Positions 45,130 to 55,257 of a stretch of DNA of 64,000 nucleotides are shown here, piece after piece. The translations under genes were made by a program, and so were the position numbers. The stretch's first letter is position 1. Each line of letters opens with the position of its first letter. The DNA comes from Nitrospinia bacterium (lineage in GTDB: Bacteria; Nitrospinota; Nitrospinia; Nitrospinales; JAJDAT01). The notes beneath the pieces were generated by a model. The model had not been told where the DNA came from, made no database searches, and saw nothing but the letters and a program-made list of their open reading frames with translations. The DNA lies in NCBI GenBank assembly GCA_029261715.1, contig JAJDAT010000004.1, positions 62,001-126,000 of the forward strand, in the 5' to 3' direction.

Positions 45130-45339
45130 TTAAATACTGATCTGCCGATTTCCGTTTTTTTTATCTTCAGCTTTTCCCTGGGTTTCAGAAGATTTCTCCG
45201 ACGGCCTTCCTGGCTTTTTTTTGTTTTTCATAAAAAGGTAAGGAGCTTCAAATTGTTTTTCCGAACGAATACTCAATGCTGCTACAGAAATCACTTCTTT
45301 CAGGTTCCCAGAACCGTCGTATACCTTAACCTCATTCAT
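45130..45339 (-). CDS. Small basic protein, unknown
   Basis: A 69-aa protein: VKVYDGSGNLKEVISVAAL, then a Lys-rich tail (MKNKKKPGRPSEKSSETQG). GAGGT lies 8 nt before the ATG. PGRP recalls an AT-hook-like motif, but only one copy is present. No family recognised. The next gene upstream is another small helical protein, and the two may form a unit. Confidence 0.5.
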   Translation of the reverse strand: MNEVKVYDGSGNLKEVISVAALSIRSEKQFEAPYLFMKNKKKPGRPSEKSSETQGKAEDKKNGNRQISI

Positions 45340-45431: not shown

Positions 45432-45644
45432 TTATATTTTACCTAATACCGATTTTAATTTTTTCGTGGCATTTTCATTTGCCAGTTTCTCTCCAGCCGC
45501 AAATTCAAATTTATAATATTCAAATTTACCTGATGCAGTTTCTCTACGTTTTTCGGCCTCTTCTGCCAATTGCCCGAACTCATCAATTAAATCTTGCACA
45601 ATCTCTTTCATTGTCTTTGAGGTTTCTACCATTATTTTCAGCAC
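45432..45644 (-). CDS. Small helical protein, unknown
   Basis: A 70-aa protein predicted to be almost wholly alpha-helical (MKEIVQDLIDEFGQLAEEAE; AAGEKLANENATKKLKSVLG). The start is GTG 45644 or ATG 45632 (MVETSKTM), the latter with AGGTG 11 nt upstream. Its length and helix recall phasin-like or coiled-coil small proteins; that is a guess. It follows the racemase gene on the same strand. Confidence 0.5.
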   Translation of the reverse strand: MLKIMVETSKTMKEIVQDLIDEFGQLAEEAEKRRETASGKFEYYKFEFAAGEKLANENATKKLKSVLGKI

Positions 45645-45729: not shown

Positions 45730-46818
45730 TTAGGCTACTGCGAACACATCACTACAATCCACAAACTGTTTTTTAACAAATGGAGAAGTCATAGCCGCGA
45801 GAAGACCTGCGTAATCTAAGTTAAACTTCACTTCATCTCCAACTTGTAAGTTTTGGTCTTTGCTCTCAAGGATAATATGATCGCTACTAGACCCTATAAT
45901 TTCTAATTTGTTATTAGTTTTTAAGCTAGATACCAAAACGTCTTGCCTGCCTAAAGCAATTATCACTCTCTGACGAGTTCCTCGGTCTTGAAAACTCGGA
46001 ACATTTCCGAAAGCGTCTTGACAAACCTCACCAAATGGAAGAGATGGTTTTTTTTTGGATTCAATAACTTCGGCAAAGAGTTGGAATGCGCGTGTGTGTA
46101 AACCAGGAATCGCTTTTCGATTCAAAGTTTCACAACCTAAAAGAATGGATTCTCCTAAACGAAGATTATTAATTTTTCTGACATCCTGCGCCGAGTTAAA
46201 CCACTCATAATTTGCAGAATTTCCACCCGAAATTATTTCCAAACTGATTTGAAATTCTTTTTCTATAAGGCTAGCCAGTTCGGATAGCTCCCTCATATTT
46301 TTATCGCCTGGTTTTACTCCCCCATAACAAGCCAAATTACAGCCAATTCCAACAACTTTTATATGAGATAAAGATAGAGTTTCCCTTATAAATTGAAGGA
46401 GGTCACAGGGTAGTATTCCTTCGCGCAGATCTCCCAACTCCACCATGATAATGACTTGATGATCTTTATTCTGCGCTTTTGCATAATAGGAAAGCTCCTT
46501 AAGAGTCCTTATCTCTGTGTTTAGACTAATAGTCACGCTTTGAACAACAGATTCTGCCTGACTTAGAGGAGTGCGTAGAAGAACAAACTTAGCGGATATT
46601 CCTGCGTTTTCCATTTTTTGGATATTTTCGATGCGAGAGTCGGCAATAAATCTGACACCTCCTTGAATCATTGCCTCAGCAATTGAAGGTTCGCCTAATA
46701 CCGCTTTTGAAACCCCCATTAACGAAATACCTTTTCGTCCATAAAGTTCGGTTAGCGCCCGGGCATTATCTTGTATTTGAGATAAGGAAATTTCTATTCT
46801 TGGCATGAAAGAGTTCAT
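45730..46818 (-). CDS. PLP-dependent amino-acid racemase, alanine/ornithine racemase type
   Basis: A 362-aa fold-type III PLP enzyme: PRIEISLSQIQDNARALTEL, PLP-lysine site LMGVSKAVLGEP, then RFIADSRIENIQKM, VGIGCNLACYGGVKPG, SGGNSANYEW and a C-terminal beta domain (LGRQDVLVSSL). The layout matches the ornithine/alanine racemase family rather than the classic Alr. It should interconvert L- and D-forms of an amino acid in the cytoplasm. It lies 23 nt after the DUF1611 gene and is likely co-transcribed. Confidence 0.8.
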   Translation of the reverse strand: MNSFMPRIEISLSQIQDNARALTELYGRKGISLMGVSKAVLGEPSIAEAMIQGGVRFIADSRIENIQKMENAGISAKFVLLRTPLSQAESVVQSVTISLNTEIRTLKELSYYAKAQNKDHQVIIMVELGDLREGILPCDLLQFIRETLSLSHIKVVGIGCNLACYGGVKPGDKNMRELSELASLIEKEFQISLEIISGGNSANYEWFNSAQDVRKINNLRLGESILLGCETLNRKAIPGLHTRAFQLFAEVIESKKKPSLPFGEVCQDAFGNVPSFQDRGTRQRVIIALGRQDVLVSSLKTNNKLEIIGSSSDHIILESKDQNLQVGDEVKFNLDYAGLLAAMTSPFVKKQFVDCSDVFAVA

Positions 46819-46841: not shown

Positions 46842-47981
46842 CTATGCCGTTTGCAACACAGGAATTTTTTCTAAGCTTTTTAGTTTGATTTTATGATTCA
46901 GCTTTGGAAAATGATCGCCTAAGGCTTGAACAAGTTTTTGACATCCATGGCTCAATACATCTGTAGTTGGTAATTGAAACTTCTTCTCATAAACCGCTAC
47001 GATTTGCCGCATTTCTTCCTCCGCTAAGCTCTCATGGCTTAATGCAAGAGCCATCACTTTAGCTTTAGAAATTTCCTCAATCAGCTTAATTTCATGTGCA
47101 ACAGTCGGCATTGCCAAGTTTGGAAAATCGCATCGAAACTTCCTAGCCGGTGGATGTTGAAGAATAACGCCATCAGGCATACTTCCTTTCAAAATTCCGA
47201 GAGATCCCATAAAAGCGGGATGACTAACGGAGCTCTGCCCTTCGACTAAAATAATGTCTGGCTTTTCATTTTCAAATGCCTGAACAACAGAGTTTTCTAT
47301 TTCACCCACTACAAACTGGGCAATTAAAGCGTCAATCGCTACCCCATACTTGGCACCTTGAATCAAACTAGTTTGACCTGTCGCAATGAGTACCGATTTT
47401 ATGCCAAGGTTATTTAAAGTCTTGTTAAGTTCCACTGCGGTAGTCATTTTTCCACAAGCGCAATCGGTGCCTAAAAAGGCAATTACAGGAACATTTACTT
47501 CGGATATTCGGCCTGTAAAGACATGCAAATCTTTTAACTCAGGAGGTTTTCTGATGTCTTTAATTTGAATACCGTTTTGAGCGGCCTTCAAGGAAAGCTC
47601 TTGATCTTCAGAAAAGAACTGGTGAAGACCATTAATAATATCCATCCCGTTTTCCATAGCTTCTACAATTAGAGATCGTTCTTTATTTGATATATAAGTA
47701 TCTAACGGAGCTTTTCCATAGATGTAACAACTAGGAACCTCTGTAAGCTCGCTAAGGGCATCGTCTAAATCGGCAAAAATTGGAATACCGCTTTTTTCTT
47801 CTCCCAGCGCTTCTCCAGCATCTTTACCAGCTAACGAACTATCAATAACGCCAACAATTGAATAGAGTTCAGATTGCCTGATTAATGCCGCAGCCGTTTT
47901 CCCATCCACCAAACCGAATTGACTTTCACAGTAAACTAAGGCAGTTTTTTTCTTCTCGGATATTAAATTAATTTCCATCAT
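46842..47981 (-). CDS. DUF1611 family protein (DgcN-like)
   Basis: A 379-aa protein. An N-terminal Rossmann-like domain (ALVYCESQFGLVDGKTAAAL) precedes the DUF1611 core with the P-loop-like LGTDCACGKMTTAVELNK, IATGQTSLIQGAKYGVAIDA, ILVEGQSSVSHPAFMGS and a PTVAHEIKLIE strand. A family member, DgcN, was described in D-glutamate breakdown in marine bacteria as an acetyltransferase acting before the dehydrogenase DgcA. The racemase neighbour suggests the same kind of D-amino-acid role here; this is inference. Confidence 0.8.
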   Translation of the reverse strand: MMEINLISEKKKTALVYCESQFGLVDGKTAAALIRQSELYSIVGVIDSSLAGKDAGEALGEEKSGIPIFADLDDALSELTEVPSCYIYGKAPLDTYISNKERSLIVEAMENGMDIINGLHQFFSEDQELSLKAAQNGIQIKDIRKPPELKDLHVFTGRISEVNVPVIAFLGTDCACGKMTTAVELNKTLNNLGIKSVLIATGQTSLIQGAKYGVAIDALIAQFVVGEIENSVVQAFENEKPDIILVEGQSSVSHPAFMGSLGILKGSMPDGVILQHPPARKFRCDFPNLAMPTVAHEIKLIEEISKAKVMALALSHESLAEEEMRQIVAVYEKKFQLPTTDVLSHGCQKLVQALGDHFPKLNHKIKLKSLEKIPVLQTA

Positions 47982-48347: not shown

Positions 48348-48479
48348 TTATCCTCTAGGCCAAAACAACTTAAACTTGGTAAAGCGTTTTACCTTAGGCC
48401 AACTGTCTTTTATTTTATCTATAAAAATACTGAACACAGAAACTCTCGTGATGCCAAACATCGACGTTGCTCCATCCAT
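48348..48479 (-). CDS. KDSW microprotein, copy 1 (43 aa)
   Basis: A 43-aa frame: MDGATSMFGITRVSVFSIFI, KDSW at residues 24-27, then a basic tail ending LFWPRG. Its partner at 51362-51481 also starts MD and has KDSW at exactly 24-27 without gaps. AGAGG lies 7 nt before the ATG. Both copies sit 32 nt after the same structured leader block. The N-terminal half is hydrophobic and may insert in a membrane. Unknown family. Confidence 0.5.
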   Translation of the reverse strand: MDGATSMFGITRVSVFSIFIDKIKDSWPKVKRFTKFKLFWPRG

Positions 48480-48510
48480 AACAATACCTCTAGAATCGTA
48501 CTTTTTATCT

Positions 48511-48600
48511 TAAGCGCGAGAAGAGCGCTTGGTCCTTGGTTATCTTTTAGCCTTCACACTTATGCCGGATTCCTCACATAAGCAGATAAAACCTTCAGAA
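48511..48600 (-). ncRNA. Conserved leader block, copy 1, before the KDSW microprotein
   Basis: Read on the minus strand this block shares with 51511-51620 the strings TGAAGGT, CTTATGTGAGGAA, CCGGCA and GGACCAAGC in the same order, ending in a hairpin: GCGCTT with AAGCGC (plus-strand 48512-48517 and 48525-48530). The other copy has AAGCAT with ATGCTT at the same place, so two base pairs change together. The block ends exactly 32 nt before the microprotein ATG in both copies. It may be a leader RNA or, less likely, a DNA operator/promoter. Confidence 0.55.
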
Positions 48601-48630
48601 CAAAACTCCATTCAAATAAAAAGGACCGCA

Positions 48631-48942
48631 TCAATTTTCATTCTTTTCGTAAGAGGGCGATAATCCTTCCAATTTTCGATCAATCTCACTAACCCCTCGC
48701 TCAATATCGTTTACTTTAGATTCAATGTATCCCACCATTCTTTCTATAGTATTAACCCCATCCAAACTTTTGATTGAATTTTTCCTGGCGGAATTACAGT
48801 CAGAATTATTACCATTCTCTGAGATAGCAGTATTTTCTTTTGCCCCTACGTCAGACGGTTTAATCCATGGGGTTAACCCGTTCAAAAATAGACCACATAT
48901 AAGAGCGATCATCAAAAACTTTGTATTGCGGTCGACATTCAT
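48631..48942 (-). CDS. Small membrane-anchored coiled-coil protein
   Basis: A 103-aa protein from ATG 48942, which follows GGAG by 8 nt; four further in-frame codons lie upstream. An N-terminal membrane helix (FLMIALICGLFLNGLTPWI) is followed by a polar, coiled-coil tail (IERMVGYIESKVNDIERGVS; EIDRKLEGL). Homologous-looking small proteins exist in marine delta-like genomes but have no known role. In the duplicated module it takes the place occupied by the 56-aa membrane protein in the second copy. Confidence 0.65.
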   Translation of the reverse strand: MNVDRNTKFLMIALICGLFLNGLTPWIKPSDVGAKENTAISENGNNSDCNSARKNSIKSLDGVNTIERMVGYIESKVNDIERGVSEIDRKLEGLSPSYEKNEN

Positions 48943-49028
48943 AACTTTCTCCATAAATATTTAAGTTGCGTCGCAACCTGAGAGCTGTTCAGTAGGAACC
49001 TTGACTTAATTATTTCTTTATTGGCCAA

Positions 49029-49544
49029 TCAACTTTTATCATGCAACTGTCTTGGAACCGCATAGCCAAGTTTTTTACAACGCTCTCGCACTGATTTGTA
49101 GGGCATACCTTTGGCAAGAACATAACGCTCAGCTCGAATAAACCAAAATGCAAGTCCACCCGTATTGTGACTAGGTTGCGATGGATCACTTCCTGCTCTA
49201 ACACCTAACGATCCTTTTCGACCCGTTTTCTGCCAACCACGAGACTCCATGATCATACGAACAACTACGCCGATGGCTTGTCTTAATCGTTTGCTTCTTT
49301 GAGTCTCTATCTCTTCCAAGGTTTTATCTATGTCCGGGTGTGACTCAAGCTCCCGAATAACGCCAGCTAAAGGAGGTCTGTCGTGGTGGATTTCGGATTC
49401 CTCCATCCGACGTTGCTTGCCGTCATTATTAAAAAATTCAAGAACTGCTTCAAAAGGCTGGGCTGTATCTTTCACAACATCGGAAAACGTTCTGCCTTGT
49501 AGGTCGTCGAGAAATTTATCGCGTGTGATGATTACGCTTGGCAA
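49029..49544 (-). CDS. 171-aa protein of unknown family, copy 1
   Basis: A 171-aa protein starting at TTG 49544; the second copy has ATG at the equivalent base and an in-frame stop 12-14 codons upstream, which fixes the start. Conserved blocks with copy 2: FLDDLQGRTFSDVVKD, MEESEIHHDRPPLAGV, RLRQAIGVVVRMIMESRGWQ, GRKGSLGVRAGSDPSQPSHN and FWFIRAERYVLAKGMPYKSV. The HHDRPP and RGW blocks look functional; the C-terminus resembles a small helix-turn-helix (YKSVRERCKKLGY). No family was recognised. A TTGTATC-repeat operator lies 48 nt upstream. Confidence 0.7.
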   Translation of the reverse strand: MPSVIITRDKFLDDLQGRTFSDVVKDTAQPFEAVLEFFNNDGKQRRMEESEIHHDRPPLAGVIRELESHPDIDKTLEEIETQRSKRLRQAIGVVVRMIMESRGWQKTGRKGSLGVRAGSDPSQPSHNTGGLAFWFIRAERYVLAKGMPYKSVRERCKKLGYAVPRQLHDKS

Positions 49545-49591
49545 TTTGGGATCAAATTTATCGATGTTGTCATTTTCTTTATGTCTCTAAG

Positions 49592-49623
49592 GATACAATT
49601 TTTGTATCTTCAATAATTGTATC
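49592..49623. promoter_or_regulatory. TTGTATC repeat operator, copy 1
   Basis: GATACAA (49592-49598) and TTGTATC (49602-49608) form a palindrome with a 3-nt centre; a second TTGTATC follows at 49617-49623 after 8 nt. The same layout with the same spacings occurs at 52585-52616 upstream of copy 2 of the 171-aa gene. It looks like the binding site of a repressor, perhaps the 171-aa protein itself. Confidence 0.5.
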
Positions 49624-49721
49624 TCTTTTTAAGATAAAAGCAAGAATAAAACATTGGATACGTCAATCTGGATATGTTGGAGCATTGATTTTTAAGGCGA
49701 GATCACTCAACAAAGTTTATC

Positions 49722-51110
49722 TTAAAACTTGCCGGAAGCCACCAACGCTTGGGTCTTCTGTGGTCCAGTTTCTGCTTTAGGATATTTTCCACTAGAAGAC
49801 CATAAGCATAATAGCCCAGTCCCTGCGGAAAAAACCGATGCCGACAAGATACCAAACTTAGCTTCATTAATTAGGCTGGGGTTAAAAGCCAGGTTGGCAA
49901 TGAACAGTGCCATAGTGAAACCAATACCTGCTAGCAGACCTCCGCCAGCCAATAATCTCCAATTGAGATCTGAAGGGATTACTGCCATACCCGTGCGGAC
50001 TGCAAACCAACTGAAGCTCAAAACACCAATGGGTTTGCCAAATGCGAATCCCACAAACACAGCAACTGTGATGGAGTTTTCAAAACTAGCGAAGGATAAT
50101 GGTATCCCAGCGTTAGCAAATGCGAAGAGTGGCATGACTATAAAAGCGACCCATGGGTGTAGCATTATTTCCAGTTGTTCGACCGGAGACAGTGTTTCAC
50201 GCGCCGCAACCTCAGCCATTTGCAATGCCTTACGACCCTCTGTATTTTCACTCCAGTGGTCGCCGGGTGGATACGCAACCACTCGATCAAATATGGCATG
50301 CAATCGATTATCGCTGATCCACCTTCCGGTGGGTGTCATCAAGCCGAGAATAACGCCAGTAACGGTAGGATGAATTCCGGACGAGTCAACAGCAAGCCAG
50401 ATGATACCGCCCACAAGAAAATAAATCGCAATGCTACGAATGCCGAGTAATGCCATTCCGCGCACTATTCCAAAACCAACTGCGGCAAGCGTTAAAGCCT
50501 GCCAATTGATTTGACTACCGTAACCAATGGCTACAACCAGAATTGCTCCGATGTCGTCAAAAATTGCCAAAGATAGCATAAACACACGCAAACTTTTGGG
50601 GATACGCCACCCGAGCAATGCCAAACAACCTATGACAAACGCCGTGTCGGTAGCCATCACTGTTCCCCAACCATTTTGACCAGGTTGACCCGACTGTAGT
50701 AATAAATAAAAGACGGCAGGCACGAGCATTCCACCCAAGGCAGCCATGATAGACAGCGCAGCTATACGCGGGTTGCGTAGTTCACCCAGTACCAATTCCC
50801 GCTTGAGTTCCAGGGCAACCAGAAAAAAGAACAGAGTCATTAAAGCGTCATTAATCCATTCTCGTATTGAGCGAGAGAATTCCAAAGAACCAATCTGTAT
50901 ACCCACTGGTGTTTCCCAGATAGCAAAAAAATGTTGGCTCCAGGGTGAATTAGATAAGACTAAGGCCGCAATGGTAAAAAACAGGAGAATTCCACCGGAA
51001 GCAACCTCTATTTGTAAAAAACGTGCAAACGGGTTTGACATCCAATTAACGAGCTCTAGTGGAAGTCGAGGTCGCTTTACAATTACTTTTAATTTTTTTT
51101 CGACAGTCAT
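49722..51110 (-). CDS. nhaA: Na+/H+ antiporter NhaA
   Basis: A 462-aa protein with about 12 membrane segments. Key acidic residues are intact: ATDTAFVIG (Asp155, equivalent to E. coli Asp133) and FDDIGAILV (Asp185-Asp186, equivalent to Asp163-Asp164), and ALELKRELVLGEL follows helix II. It exports sodium or lithium in exchange for protons. A 30-residue N-terminal tail and a longer loop near residue 300 explain the extra length over 388 residues. Base composition is clearly more GC-rich than the neighbouring DNA, suggesting acquisition. It lies between the two copies of the 171-aa module. Confidence 0.92.
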   Translation of the reverse strand: MTVEKKLKVIVKRPRLPLELVNWMSNPFARFLQIEVASGGILLFFTIAALVLSNSPWSQHFFAIWETPVGIQIGSLEFSRSIREWINDALMTLFFFLVALELKRELVLGELRNPRIAALSIMAALGGMLVPAVFYLLLQSGQPGQNGWGTVMATDTAFVIGCLALLGWRIPKSLRVFMLSLAIFDDIGAILVVAIGYGSQINWQALTLAAVGFGIVRGMALLGIRSIAIYFLVGGIIWLAVDSSGIHPTVTGVILGLMTPTGRWISDNRLHAIFDRVVAYPPGDHWSENTEGRKALQMAEVAARETLSPVEQLEIMLHPWVAFIVMPLFAFANAGIPLSFASFENSITVAVFVGFAFGKPIGVLSFSWFAVRTGMAVIPSDLNWRLLAGGGLLAGIGFTMALFIANLAFNPSLINEAKFGILSASVFSAGTGLLCLWSSSGKYPKAETGPQKTQALVASGKF

Positions 51111-51152
51111 GTCTTATGATTAATCATATAAATGAAATTCCAAAGAGTTAAA

Positions 51153-51177
51153 TTATTGGTTATCCAATAACGATAAC
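51153..51177 (-). promoter_or_regulatory. Mutually exclusive hairpins in the nhaA leader
   Basis: TTATTGG (51153-51159) pairs with CCAATAA (51164-51170), while GTTATC (51159-51164) pairs with GATAAC (51172-51177). The two overlap and cannot form together, as in an expression platform. The nhaA start is 43 nt away. Confidence 0.35.
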
Positions 51178-51254
51178 TAGAACAAAAAGATTGAAAATAT
51201 TTATTCTAAGGAGAACCTGTTCTTAAAATTTCATTAATTCCGCAATAAAGGGGA

Positions 51255-51284
51255 AAAGAGCTTGAAAATATACCCAAGCTCTTT
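51255..51284 (-). terminator. Terminator between the KDSW microprotein and nhaA
   Basis: A perfect 10-bp stem: AAAGAGCTTG (51255-51264) with CAAGCTCTTT (51275-51284), loop 10 nt. On the minus strand the stem ends in TTTT before CCCC. It lies 77 nt after the microprotein stop. Confidence 0.6.
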
Positions 51285-51361
51285 AGAGCTGCAGAGTCTT
51301 GAAGGATGGTAAAGCGGCTTAATTTTAAAGGAGGAGAACTTCAACGGGCCAAGGAAGTTGA

Positions 51362-51481
51362 CTATTGGACACGCTCACTATTGGGAATTGCTTTTTTTCC
51401 CCAACTGTCTTTCATGGAGAATAGTAAAAGCCCAATAATAGAAATTAAAGTAAGAATTCCCTTTAACAAAGTTGAATCCAT
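51362..51481 (-). CDS. KDSW microprotein, copy 2 (39 aa)
   Basis: A 39-aa frame: MDSTLLKGILTLISIIGLLL then KDSW at 24-27 and a short polar end (AIPNSERVQ). It has one membrane helix (residues about 5-21). AGAG lies 10-13 nt before the ATG. Position, start residues and the KDSW motif align with copy 1 at 48348-48479 without gaps. Too short for standard gene finders. Confidence 0.5.
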   Translation of the reverse strand: MDSTLLKGILTLISIIGLLLFSMKDSWGKKAIPNSERVQ

Positions 51482-51510
51482 AATAATTTTCTCTGGATTA
51501 TATTGTGCCT

Positions 51511-51620
51511 AAAAAGCATCGTTAAATGCTTGGTCCATGATTGAAATTTGGCGCCATAGGCCCGTGCCGGTTTCCTCACATAAGCCAGTGGACAATCAAA
51601 ACGGTAATACCTTCAATTTA
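51511..51620 (-). ncRNA. Conserved leader block, copy 2, before the KDSW microprotein
   Basis: Same order of blocks as 48511-48600 on the minus strand: TGAAGGT, CTTATGTGAGGAA, CCGGCA, GGACCAAGC, then the hairpin AAGCAT/ATGCTT (51514-51519, 51526-51531). It ends 32 nt before the ATG at 51481. An alternative reading: minus-strand TTAACG in the hairpin loop and TATAAT 17 nt later look like a promoter, so the block could act at DNA level. Confidence 0.5.
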
Positions 51621-51727
51621 AATAGTTCGCGACTATTCGATTTGTTAAATTTTTTCATTCTTCTCTAATTATGGTTTATTCAATATCTAAAACATATTTC
51701 TTAATAAGAACTTGTTCCAATCATTTT

Positions 51728-51898
51728 TTAGCTAATAGAGTTGAGGGCGATCAACCGTAATGTATATCCCTGAATAGAAATCGCGATAGCTGAAAGGGTT
51801 ACCGGCAAAAAAGAGTTTTCTCGATTTAGAGAAACTCCAAGCACAATAAAATTTAGAATCATTGAAGCAAGCAAGGCATAAAAAGCGTTAATTTCCAT
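51728..51898 (-). CDS. Small membrane protein, 56 aa
   Basis: A 56-aa frame below usual gene-finder limits. A strong Shine-Dalgarno (AAGGGGAG) lies 5 nt before the ATG. Two hydrophobic segments: FYALLASMILNFIVLGV and VTLSAIAISIQGYTLRLIAL. It occupies the same place in this module as the 103-aa membrane protein in the other copy, between the 171-aa gene and the conserved leader block. Function unknown. Confidence 0.6.
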   Translation of the reverse strand: MEINAFYALLASMILNFIVLGVSLNRENSFLPVTLSAIAISIQGYTLRLIALNSIS

Positions 51899-52025
51899 TC
51901 TCCCCTTATTAGGAGTTAGTCTTTCCTAGCGGAAAAACCATCTACCAATGAGCTCCACCGCCAATTTGATTAGGTAGCAAAACTTGACCTTATGAGTCAT
52001 TAACCATACTTTATAAAATTCGACG

Positions 52026-52541
52026 TTATTTTCTGCTACTCGGTTGTCTTGGCACCGGGAACCCTAGAGATTTGCAACGCTCTCGAACTGATTTGTAGGG
52101 CATACCTTCGGCAAGAACATAACGTTCAGCGCGAATAAACCAAAATGCTAGTCCACCCGTATTGTGACTGGGTTGCGATGGATTACTTCCCGCTCTAACG
52201 CCTAACGATCCTTTTCGACCCGTTTTCTGCCAACCGCGATCCTCCATGATAATGCGAACAACTACGCCAATAGCTTGTCTTAATCGTTTGTTTTTCTGAA
52301 TATGAACTTTTGATAAGAACTGATTAATGGTTGGCTCCGATTCAAGCTCTCGAACAATGCCCGCTAATGGAGGTCTATCATGATGAATTTCAGATTCCTC
52401 CATTCGGCGTTGCCTTTCCACATTATTAAAAAACTCGAGAACCGCAAGAAAAGGCTGTTCAGAATCTTTCACCACATCGGAAAACGTTCTACCTTGTAGG
52501 TCTTTCAAAAACTTATCTTGTGAAATATTTACTTTTCGCAT
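52026..52541 (-). CDS. 171-aa protein of unknown family, copy 2
   Basis: A 171-aa paralogue of 49029-49544, starting at ATG 52541. Sequence identity is high over the middle and C-terminal half (HHDRPPLAGIVRELES; GRKGSLGVRAGSNPSQPSHN; GLAFWFIRAERYVLAEGMPY) and lower at residues 70-90. GWQKTGRKGSLGVR is invariant. As in copy 1, the TTGTATC operator lies 44 nt upstream and a small membrane gene follows. Function unknown. Confidence 0.7.
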   Translation of the reverse strand: MRKVNISQDKFLKDLQGRTFSDVVKDSEQPFLAVLEFFNNVERQRRMEESEIHHDRPPLAGIVRELESEPTINQFLSKVHIQKNKRLRQAIGVVVRIIMEDRGWQKTGRKGSLGVRAGSNPSQPSHNTGGLAFWFIRAERYVLAEGMPYKSVRERCKSLGFPVPRQPSSRK

Positions 52542-53141
52542 TTTGGATTCAGACTTATCAATATCTATGCCACACTAATAATAACATACAAATTTTGTAT
52601 CTTCAAATATTGTATCTTTTATCTCATCAAAAGCATGAGTAGCGCTATGAAAACACTTGGAGCAATTCAGTTTTAATAGAAAGGAGACTTTATTAAAAAA
52701 AGGAAAGTTCCCTTGATGAAACATATCGTAAATTTACCAAAGGACTTAGAAACAAGCCAAGGGTTTTTCCACAAGTCCTAAAAATATTTAAAATGCTAGA
52801 AAAGAATCAAAATCTCTATCCAACAAAATATGTACTCTATTTAAACTATATTTTAAATAGATAGGTTTTTACAGGAGTTTTAATTCTCAAGTTTAAAGGA
52901 AGGTTAGTTGCTTTTATACTCTCCAATTTTTAAAAAAAATTTTCTAAATTCTACATTTGAAAGGGGCAAACTCAGTAGTAATCATAACTTTAAGAAGAGT
53001 TCTAGTAAATCAGCTAAGCTATCAAGGTTTTATCAAGATCGAAGAAAAAGGACTTACAAGAAAAACTGTAACCACTTATATTATTGTTGGGTCGAATCTG
53101 GGTCGATCAGGTGGTCTACTAATGAATAATTGGTAGGCCGA
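52542..53141. other. Stretch without a confident gene
   Basis: It holds the operator below and then about 500 nt of AT-rich DNA. A 73-residue plus-strand frame (52908-53129) has a basic composition and no ribosome site; it is probably not a gene. A decayed coding remnant is possible. Confidence 0.35.
52585..52616. promoter_or_regulatory. TTGTATC repeat operator, copy 2
   Basis: CATACAA (52585-52591), TTGTATC (52595-52601) and TTGTATC (52610-52616) with the same 3-nt and 8-nt gaps as at 49592-49623. It stands upstream of the second 171-aa gene. Conservation of spacing in otherwise diverged DNA suggests a protein-binding site. Confidence 0.5.
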
Positions 53142-54584
53142 TTAAGAAACAGCTTTAACAGGAGAGGGGGTTGTTGTCGCTGTTTTAGGGAGAGATATTT
53201 TAAATTTTGTCCCTACCCCCACTTGGCTTTCCACTTCAATGATTCCTTTATGCGCTTCGATAATATATTTTGATATCGCTAGCCCAAGGCCACTACCCCC
53301 CTCTGTTCGAGAACGCGATTTCTCGACTCTATAAAACCGATTAAAAATAAAATCAAGATCTTCCTTTGGAATTCCAATACCTGTGTCTTCTATCGAAAGA
53401 ACAGCCATATCATTTTTATTTTGGAGGTAGACCTTTATTCGGCCTTCGTTAGGAGTGTATTTAATAGCGTTATTTAGCAAATTCCATAACGTTTGCCTTA
53501 ACCGCACTGCGTCGCCAATAATCTCCACTGGTTCTAAAAAAGCAATAATGATTTCAATCTGTTTTTCACTCGCGATTATCTCGGCATGCTTGCAAATGTC
53601 TTCGGTTATTAAAGCTAAATCTAAAGGTTTGAACTCCAATCGAATTTCGGCTTCGTCCGCTTTTGACAAATAAAACAAGTCTTCTAGAATTTTGGACATA
53701 TAGTTAATTTCTTCCAAATTACTCGAAATAACTTCCTGATATTCTTCCGGAGTACGCACCTTTCTAAGAGCCAATTCGCTTTGCCCTTTTAAGACGGTCA
53801 ATGGAGTTCTTAACTCATGAGAAGCGTCACTACTAAATTGCCTAACCTGAATAAAAAAGTTTTCCAACCGTTCCAGCATTTCGTTAAAAGTTTGCGCTAG
53901 CCGCCCTATCTCATCCTGGGCATCTGGAACAGGTATTCTCCTACTTAGATCAGCCCCACTGCCAATTTTTCTAGCGGTTTGATTTATTTTATCCACGGGT
54001 CGAAGAGCTCTTCTAGCCATAAAACCGCCAACTAAAGTCGCTAAAACAAGAACGGCGGGAACTGCCGTGTATAGAAAAATTTTCAGGTTTTTCATAGTTT
54101 CGTTAACCGCCATTAACGAAGTTCCTACCTGGATTAAGTTGACCAACTTTCCCCCACGCAAAACGGGTCTCGTTAAAACTCGAATATTTTGGTTCTCCGA
54201 TAAAGTAAAAGTCTCATACGAGCTCTTCCCCTCCAAAGCTTTTGCATAAGACTCTTCCGTTAAAGGAAACTGGGAAGGTTCAATATTCTTTGAAAGGGAA
54301 CCCACATTTCCTGAGCCATCGTAGATTCGGTAAAATTTATTGATGTTTCCGTAACCTAAGAATTGTTCTAAAAAGTTTTCTAGGCCAGGTAATGGCGCGG
54401 AGGTATATCTGTTTAAAGCCGTTTTTGCAACGACATTTGCGGAAATTTTCAGCGAATTATCAACGCCCTCATAGAGCCTTTTTGAGAGGAAGAAAAAAAG
54501 TAGAAAACTGAAAAGAATTAGGATGCTTCCAAGAAGAGCAACATACCATGCTGTTAACTTTAATCGAACGGAGTAGATTATCAC
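53142..54584 (-). CDS. Sensor histidine kinase, CusS/CopS-like
   Basis: A 480-aa membrane kinase: membrane helix about 10-32 (WYVALLGSILILFSFLLFFFLS), periplasmic sensor about 33-165, second helix about 168-190, HAMP (RRALRPVDKINQTARKIGSG), HisKA with SDASHELRTPLTVLKGQSEL, and HATPase (NLLNNAIKYTPNEGR; DTGIGIPKEDL; GSGLGLAISKYIIEAHKG). It should phosphorylate the adjacent regulator 4 nt upstream. Domain order resembles heavy-metal sensors, but no metal-transport genes are near. Confidence 0.85.
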   Translation of the reverse strand: MIIYSVRLKLTAWYVALLGSILILFSFLLFFFLSKRLYEGVDNSLKISANVVAKTALNRYTSAPLPGLENFLEQFLGYGNINKFYRIYDGSGNVGSLSKNIEPSQFPLTEESYAKALEGKSSYETFTLSENQNIRVLTRPVLRGGKLVNLIQVGTSLMAVNETMKNLKIFLYTAVPAVLVLATLVGGFMARRALRPVDKINQTARKIGSGADLSRRIPVPDAQDEIGRLAQTFNEMLERLENFFIQVRQFSSDASHELRTPLTVLKGQSELALRKVRTPEEYQEVISSNLEEINYMSKILEDLFYLSKADEAEIRLEFKPLDLALITEDICKHAEIIASEKQIEIIIAFLEPVEIIGDAVRLRQTLWNLLNNAIKYTPNEGRIKVYLQNKNDMAVLSIEDTGIGIPKEDLDFIFNRFYRVEKSRSRTEGGSGLGLAISKYIIEAHKGIIEVESQVGVGTKFKISLPKTATTTPSPVKAVS

Positions 54585-54588
54585 TCGA

Positions 54589-55257
54589 TCACTCCTTCAT
54601 CACATAACCTACGCCTCTTAAGGTATGTATCAACTTCTTAGAATAGCTTTTATCTATTTTTTTTCTAAGATGGTTGACATAGACGTCGATAACGTTGGTA
54701 AAGGTATCAAAATTATAATCCCAAACATGTTCTGCAATCATGGTTCGGGTTAACACCTTTCCCGGAGATCTCATAAAGTATTCAAGCAAACTATATTCCT
54801 TACCAGTCAATTCGATTTCTTCTCCGTCTCGACTAACTTTGTGCTTTACCAAATCTAAAGTAAGGTCTGCAACTTGTAAAACTGTTTTAGTTTCATTTTG
54901 TCCGCGCCTTAACAATACTCGCGTACGAGCAAGCAACTCAGAAAATGCAAAAGGTTTGGTTAAATAATCGTCGGCGCCACGATTCAAACCATTGACTTTA
55001 TCGTCTACTGAATCTTTTGCGGTTAATAGCAAAATTGGGGTGGTAATCTTATTCTTTCTTAATCGAGAAAGAACTTCTAACCCATCAATTTTAGGCAGCA
55101 TGATGTCAAGAATGATTAGATCGTAATTCTCGGCTTCTGCCAAACCTAAACCTTCTTCTCCATCAGAAGCTACATCCGCCGCGTATAGCTCCTCCTCTAA
55201 CCCCTTCTTTATAAATCCGGCGACTTTCTTTTCATCCTCGACAACTAAAATCCGCAT
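54589..55257 (-). CDS. OmpR/CusR-type response regulator
   Basis: A 222-aa regulator: receiver domain with LILDIMLPKIDGLEVL (phospho-Asp51), LTAKD and DDYLTKPFAF; then a winged-helix DNA-binding domain (LTGKEYSLLEYFMRSPGKVL; NHLRKKIDKSYSKKLIHTLR; VRGVGYVM-type end). Partner kinase 4 nt downstream. The start is adjacent to the stop of a small upstream gene, so they are co-translated. Confidence 0.9.
   Translation of the reverse strand: MRILVVEDEKKVAGFIKKGLEEELYAADVASDGEEGLGLAEAENYDLIILDIMLPKIDGLEVLSRLRKNKITTPILLLTAKDSVDDKVNGLNRGADDYLTKPFAFSELLARTRVLLRRGQNETKTVLQVADLTLDLVKHKVSRDGEEIELTGKEYSLLEYFMRSPGKVLTRTMIAEHVWDYNFDTFTNVIDVYVNHLRKKIDKSYSKKLIHTLRGVGYVMKE

Follow-up and report, generated by a model that had tools for sequence, protein, structure and literature searches.

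The window analyzed in this study, a stretch of 64,000 nucleotides from a Nitrospinia bacterium (C4:62001-126000 in a genome of 5.3 Mb), encodes on its minus strand two copies of a protein of 171 amino acids (aa). Our main finding is that this protein belongs to an undescribed family whose gene is accompanied, in at least five phyla, by an operator of exact spacing; the duplication in the window is real but secondary. The 171-aa protein probably founds a family of autoregulatory DNA-binding proteins, its predicted DNA binding being derived from the sequence comparisons described below. An initial annotation of the window had drawn attention to the duplication and interpreted it as a four-part module, perhaps related to ion or membrane stress through the Na+/H+ antiporter gene nhaA, which separates the two copies. 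The genome is the sole member of its family among the compared genomes, and its order includes named Nitrospinaceae bins.

The 171-aa protein family and its tandem operator

The 171-aa protein gave no significant match in Pfam, NCBIfam, PHROGs, or PADLOC and none in the PDB, in agreement with the initial annotation, in which it was not recognized. Relatives share 54-78% identity. A scan of genome contigs resulted in 39 loci labeled Nitrospinota, Desulfobacterota/Deltaproteobacteria, Planctomycetota, two Nitrosomonas bins, and one Candidatus Fraserbacteria bin. Most carriers are metagenome bins, and single odd placements could be binning errors; isolates carrying the gene are Desulfosarcina alkanivorans, Botrimarina, Aeoliella, and Blastopirellula. 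The occurrence is patchy, with 15 out of 77 Nitrospinota and 7 out of 392 Planctomycetota genomes (one of the latter 7 with a remote relative). Many deep forks of the family tree are unsupported, and the tree mixes phyla in part, which fits horizontal transfer.

The regions upstream of 43 gene copies were examined for pairs of the 13-bp palindrome TRCAAWWWTTGYA at a 15-bp step, a pair being counted at a score of at least 22 out of 26. Such tandem boxes were found at 38 of the 43 loci versus none of 215 Markov controls and 2 of 205 random windows from the same loci, and other steps (13-14 and 16-24 bp) at 0-2 of the 43 loci. The motif was drawn from part of the scored loci; the cleanest checks are the contrast in spacing and five planctomycete promoters fetched later. 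Three of these five scored 22-24 and one 21 out of 26, each best at 15 bp, and one had no boxes. The number of units is 2, 3, 4, or 5 across loci, and the register is always kept. At 24 of the 38 loci a TTGCTT-like -35 hexamer is located 15-17 bp before unit 1, whose TACAAT represents the -10.

This conservation would be only apparent if a single cassette with functionless boxes had recently spread between the phyla, as might be read from the partly mixed tree and the patchy occurrence. However, box letters and 15-bp register persist among proteins down to 54-66% identity, whereas the spacer letters do not, and the unit number varies in register. We give such a recent spread hardly any credence. 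It also appears very unlikely that the repeats act in RNA, the protein binding units 2-5 in the 5' untranslated region of its own mRNA and thereby controlling translation. A start site about 7 nt past the -10 would put units 2 onward in the transcript, and the protein is basic near residues 105-116, but the well conserved unit 1 includes the -10 and for the most part precedes the transcript, and many loci have only two units.

Boxes scoring at least 23 out of 26 within up to 12.5 kb were located only before the 171-aa gene, except at locus L052, where 630 bp separate the gene from the array upstream of it, which is preceded by its own -35. Across whole genomes, double boxes carrying no more than one mismatch were restricted to the promoter of this gene, with a single further pair located where contig C69 of genome G008 ends. 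Near-perfect double boxes were not found in six genomes without the 171-aa gene, nor was an array found at 12 loci of the DgcN gene, its main operon partner, in Nitrospinales lacking the 171-aa gene. The remaining genome-wide matches have 2-3 mismatches and are near control level in most genomes, and a wider regulon was rejected. A conserved palindromic operator over the gene's own promoter, with a presence tied to the gene, corresponds to the functional class of autoregulated regulators heading operons, and boxes linked to the gene in this way look like a dedicated self-operator.

The boxes could instead be the target of another, host-encoded regulator, with the 171-aa protein as an enzyme or structural protein under its control. 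The family shows 28 invariant residues, polar ones included, and no recognizable DNA-binding domain, both of which would suit such a role. Against it, the boxes have the same sequence and spacing in Nitrospinota, Desulfobacterota, Planctomycetota, and Nitrosomonas bins without an obvious common local regulator. Moreover, a regulator of the host should have further targets, whereas near-perfect boxes only precede the 171-aa gene and are missing from the DgcN operons without it. We consider this explanation unlikely.

In a second AlphaFold (AF2) model of the 171-aa protein (predicted local distance difference test score 84, predicted template modeling score 0.80) the first hundred residues are all-helical and end in a long helix (81-101). 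In the C-terminal part, residues 104-112 and 137-143 form a beta hairpin that encloses a disordered basic loop, and a final helix follows. This modeled order of secondary structure elements is compatible with a winged-helix-like DNA binder. Foldseek searches gave no match for two models in the PDB (best E 2.9) and none for one model in a viral library; the protein may represent a new fold. The nearly invariant H-D-R patch within residues 39-66 might bind a ligand or metal.

Several other assignments were considered and rejected. Residues 39-66 (RMEESEIHHDRPPLAGVV) resemble the first chlorophyll-binding helix, with a match to LHCI-4 (E 0.0024) via an E..HH.R...G pattern. Pfam PF00504 (CAB) matched 3 out of 41 members over a short segment only and below the cutoff (best E 0.089). 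Since the match is short and sub-cutoff and the hosts are not phototrophs, a kinship with CAB/HLIP light-harvesting proteins was discarded in favor of convergence or chance. A phage origin was dropped because no members were found in phages or viral contigs. There was no credible PADLOC match indicating a defense system for the family, and a stray Cas10d match of one plasmid relative (E 0.00096) was taken as noise. A function as antitoxin of a toxin-antitoxin pair was also discarded, as no small gene is conserved beside the 171-aa gene across phyla and its partners are metabolic.

Plasmid relatives and operon partners

A tblastn search against plasmids resulted in a weak match in Lelliottia (28.5%, E 0.007), which led to further plasmid proteins. 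These relatives, of about 107-200 aa in Lelliottia (NZ_CP042362.1), Acinetobacter (NZ_CP118895.1 and others), Agrobacterium, Rhizobium, and Photobacterium, also include proteins of Variovorax and Sinorhizobium. Profile-profile comparison of the 171-aa family with the plasmid proteins gave a probability of 93.9 and an E-value of 1.5e-7 over about 100 residues, and in the reverse direction a plasmid-only profile recovered the 171-aa genes alone from 21 Nitrospinales genomes. Profile similarity in both directions thus joins the family and the Lelliottia/Acinetobacter-type proteins in a superfamily. A 128-codon frame of a planctomycete (G386, L148; YMECATLNHDLPAVAGI ... GWQTTGVKG) is intermediate between the two groups and provides a useful bridge.

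Like the 171-aa gene, some of the plasmid genes head or adjoin operons, and two show tandem promoter repeats. Before the genes of the Lelliottia and Agrobacterium relatives tandem palindromes in a 13-14-bp arrangement were found, namely CATATATAACATG units with a 14-bp step in the former (p 0.015) and GGT...ACC units in the latter (p 0.045). These repeats have the same architecture as the operator of the 171-aa gene, written in different letters, and are suggestive only. In contrast to the 171-aa family, the plasmid proteins have no HH patch, no GLAFWF segment, and no Nitrospinota box sequence, are 23-46% identical among themselves, and are encoded beside PP2C, TerY/InaA-kinase, or defense genes rather than DgcN-Orr. 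The Lelliottia relative (L069:6028-6351) adjoins TerD/TerY/PP2C/InaA-kinase genes, and the Acinetobacter relatives L092 and L100 directly precede a PP2C gene. We regard it as quite possible, if not yet probable, that both groups form a superfamily of small autoregulatory DNA binders of a new fold on plasmids of Pseudomonadota and on chromosomes of Nitrospinota, Planctomycetota, and Desulfobacterota, which would assemble on 13-bp palindromes repeated in tandem every 14-15 bp across the -10 and serve as interchangeable heads of unrelated operons.

On the chromosomes, DgcN is adjacent or close to the 171-aa gene in 19 out of 45 homologous loci and the ornithine-racemase-like gene Orr in 18 out of 45. 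The 171-aa gene is commonly the first gene of a DgcN-Orr operon, and in several Nitrospinota its stop codon overlaps the DgcN start (TGAATG, TAATG). Among 61 Nitrospinales genomes DgcN is present in 13 of the 14 with the 171-aa gene versus 12 of the 47 without it (Fisher p = 8.5e-6). DgcN was described as key in a D-glutamate racemization route, and recycling of D-amino acids was flagged for Nitrospinia (PMC12363236). The DgcN-like gene of the window scored 165 bits (E 1.6e-48) versus a cutoff of 480 and was thus not assigned to DgcN; the Orr-like gene reached 400 versus a cutoff of 480.

Gene sets other than DgcN-Orr were also found behind the 171-aa gene, their functions being read from sequence. 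At L018, L019, L021, L030, L045, and L049 it heads nucleotidyltransferase, aminotransferase, and CDP-alcohol transferase-type sets (phosphonate- or head-group-like) replacing DgcN-Orr. In the planctomycete loci L143 and L145, and also in L039, it is followed by a small TPR-like repeat protein, and a flotillin-like gene is located further off in L035, L041, L042, and L047 (Planctomycetota).

The duplicated locus around nhaA

The first half of the locus comprises, in minus-strand order, a response regulator, a sensor kinase, the operator, 171-aa copy 1, the small protein s56, a leader block, a KDSW open reading frame (ORF) of 39 aa, and nhaA (Table 1). It is followed by the second operator, 171-aa copy 2, the small protein s107, the second leader block, and a KDSW ORF of 43 aa. 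Beyond these, the DgcN-like gene, the Orr-like gene, two small genes, and groES/groEL are located.

Table 1. Features of the window discussed in the text
Feature	Position	Strand	Remarks
Sensor kinase and response regulator	53142..55257	-	upstream of copy 1
-35-like hexamer ATGCTT, copy 1	52631..52636	-	TTGCTT in relatives; 16 bp before TACAAT
Operator copy 1, TACAATATTTGAA + 2 bp + TACAAAATTTGTA	52587..52614	-	15-bp step; unit 1 contains -10 TACAAT
171-aa protein copy 1	52026..52541	-	ATG start; predicted autoregulator
s56, 56-aa membrane protein	51728..51898	-	conserved in 7 relative loci and in L131, close to the DgcN-Orr cluster
Leader block copy 1	51510..51587	-	two predicted hairpins
KDSW ORF copy 1, 39 aa	51362..51481	-	copy 2 is the sole homologue found
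nhaA, Na+/H+ antiporter	49722..51110	-	between both copies; neighbor not conserved
-35-like hexamer TTGCTT, copy 2	49638..49643	-	16 bp before TACAAT
Operator copy 2, TACAATTATTGAA + 2 bp + TACAAAAATTGTA	49594..49621	-	15-bp step
171-aa protein copy 2	49029..49544	-	TTG start aligned with ATG of relatives
s107, 107-aa protein	48631..48954	-	N-terminal membrane segment; homologues adjoin s56 in 4 relative loci
Leader block copy 2	48509..48585	-
KDSW ORF copy 2, 43 aa	48348..48479	-
DUF1611/DgcN-like gene	46842..47981	-	main conserved downstream partner of the 171-aa gene
Ornithine-racemase-like gene (Orr)	45730..46818	-	conserved partner
s70, 70-aa protein	45432..45644	-	conserved cluster member
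s69, 69-aa protein	45130..45339	-	conserved cluster member

The initial annotation was correct in the coordinates of both copies, in the equal spacing of the two palindromic units of each operator, and in the identical distance between leader and KDSW ORF, exactly 32 nt from the hairpin GCTT to the ATG. Of its parts, operator, 171-aa ORF, leader, and KDSW ORF indeed occur twice. The small membrane proteins do not belong to this set, as s56 and s107 are different families unrelated to each other. The duplicated set is therefore operator, 171-aa gene, and leader/KDSW ORF, with the small proteins excluded.

The two 171-aa copies share 78% identity (synonymous divergence dS 0.66, ratio of nonsynonymous to synonymous divergence dN/dS 0.24), and the dN/dS ratio suggests that both are under selection. 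Describing the duplication as not recent was fair; yet in the family tree both copies group as sisters (support 99/96), which places their origin within the lineage of the window.

As a functional unit, the pair of operator and 171-aa gene holds up by its recurrence in at least five phyla, and a looser association extends to DgcN, Orr, and several small proteins. The four-part order with leader and KDSW ORF was present in no other genome examined. Two observations had been expected to speak against the module, namely a 171-aa protein from a common unrelated family and relatives lacking the other parts; the latter was made, as relatives are devoid of leader and KDSW ORF, and the former was not. 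A stress module tied to nhaA could appeal to the identical order and 32-nt gap of both copies, but nhaA adjoins the 171-aa gene in none of the 45 homologous loci and is thus an accidental neighbor. Together with the unrelated small proteins and the absence of leader and KDSW ORF from all relatives, this largely refutes the module, which we now hold to be most improbable.

Homologues of s56 and s107 are located side by side in the relatives L023, L024, and L027, in L023 and L024 after DgcN-Orr. The L023 order is 171-aa gene, DgcN, Orr, s69, a ribosomal-S21-like ORF (judged by its sequence), s107, and s56, and this locus is preceded by the same kinase/response regulator pair (67% and 83% identical to that of the window). 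A rearranged cluster of the L023 type is the best reading of the window. S21-like ORFs were observed inside the small-protein cluster of relatives at L023:9125-9330, L027:6795-6995, and L026:9053-9253; none was noticed there in the window. The perfect double operator in G008, a genome of another genus, maps to G008:C69:5262-5302 (3' end of L131) just after an s56 homologue, and the next gene is cut by the contig end. Probably a second 171-aa copy exists in G008 and is lost at this break in the assembly.

The leader block, a GCTTATGTGAGGAANCCGGCA ... GGACCAAGC hairpin in two copies, is a candidate for a small structured RNA with only two known copies. A covariance model searched against 64 Nitrospinales genomes detected it only twice, both times in the genome of the window, and not in the 63 others. 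Its folding is no stronger than that of shuffled sequences (z -0.6 and 0.05). The second hairpin keeps AAGC/GCTT with a compensatory AT-to-GC change, but with two sequences only such changes prove little. No Rfam match, including Na+/Li+ riboswitches, was obtained at E <= 5, and a known riboswitch or other known RNA was dropped for this reason. A coding leader peptide was also dropped because the frames differ between the copies. No credible KDSW-like ORF was found in the other genomes searched.

Proposed mode of action and comparison with known systems

Several points weigh against autoregulation by a DNA-binding 171-aa protein. DNA binding is predicted from the genomic association of gene and boxes. 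No fold match was obtained to any DNA-binding protein, solved winged helix-turn-helix proteins included, and the term winged-helix-like refers to the order of secondary structure elements only. Five of the 43 loci remain below the tandem-box threshold (four once L052 is credited). Among the plasmid relatives, tandem palindromes near the start were nominally significant in 2 out of 9, the other seven being unconvincing. Finally, most downstream partners outside the DgcN-Orr group differ, and a common pathway is thus not established.

With these reservations, the operator-gene pair probably works like an autoregulated operon switch which fits no known regulator family. The 171-aa protein, probably as a dimer, would bind each palindrome and spread cooperatively along the array, and the bound array would block or tune RNA polymerase at the protein's own promoter. 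A role as repressor seems most likely because the -10 and the start region both lie under the boxes. Autoregulation would set the level of the co-transcribed genes, DgcN-Orr in the window and other metabolic, TPR, or phosphatase genes elsewhere. It is a pure guess that the E-x-x-H-x-R patch or the flexible loop 113-136 may sense a D-amino acid, an osmolyte, or a similar signal. In the window each of the duplicated operator-gene pairs would stand at the head of a small transcription unit, one on either side of nhaA, and copy 2 is followed downstream by the DgcN-Orr operon.

For a family lacking annotation and fold match and patchily distributed across phyla, both the protein and its exact predicted DNA target are now defined in sequence. 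If our interpretation is true, it would assign a regulator to the DgcN-Orr operon of marine Nitrospinota, nitrite oxidizers with a poorly understood D-amino-acid or solute metabolism, and would explain what the unnamed plasmid proteins encoded next to TerY and PP2C genes do.

Among known systems, the DgcN/DgcA D-glutamate pathway (NF041892) is similar in that the main downstream gene is DgcN-like, but the partner in the window is Orr-like rather than DgcA. Unlike characterized regulators, the 171-aa protein lacks a sequence or fold match to any of their families. Nevertheless, it shares with autoregulated first-gene regulators the tandem palindromes overlapping the promoter, the position of its gene as the first in the operon, and a single target per genome.

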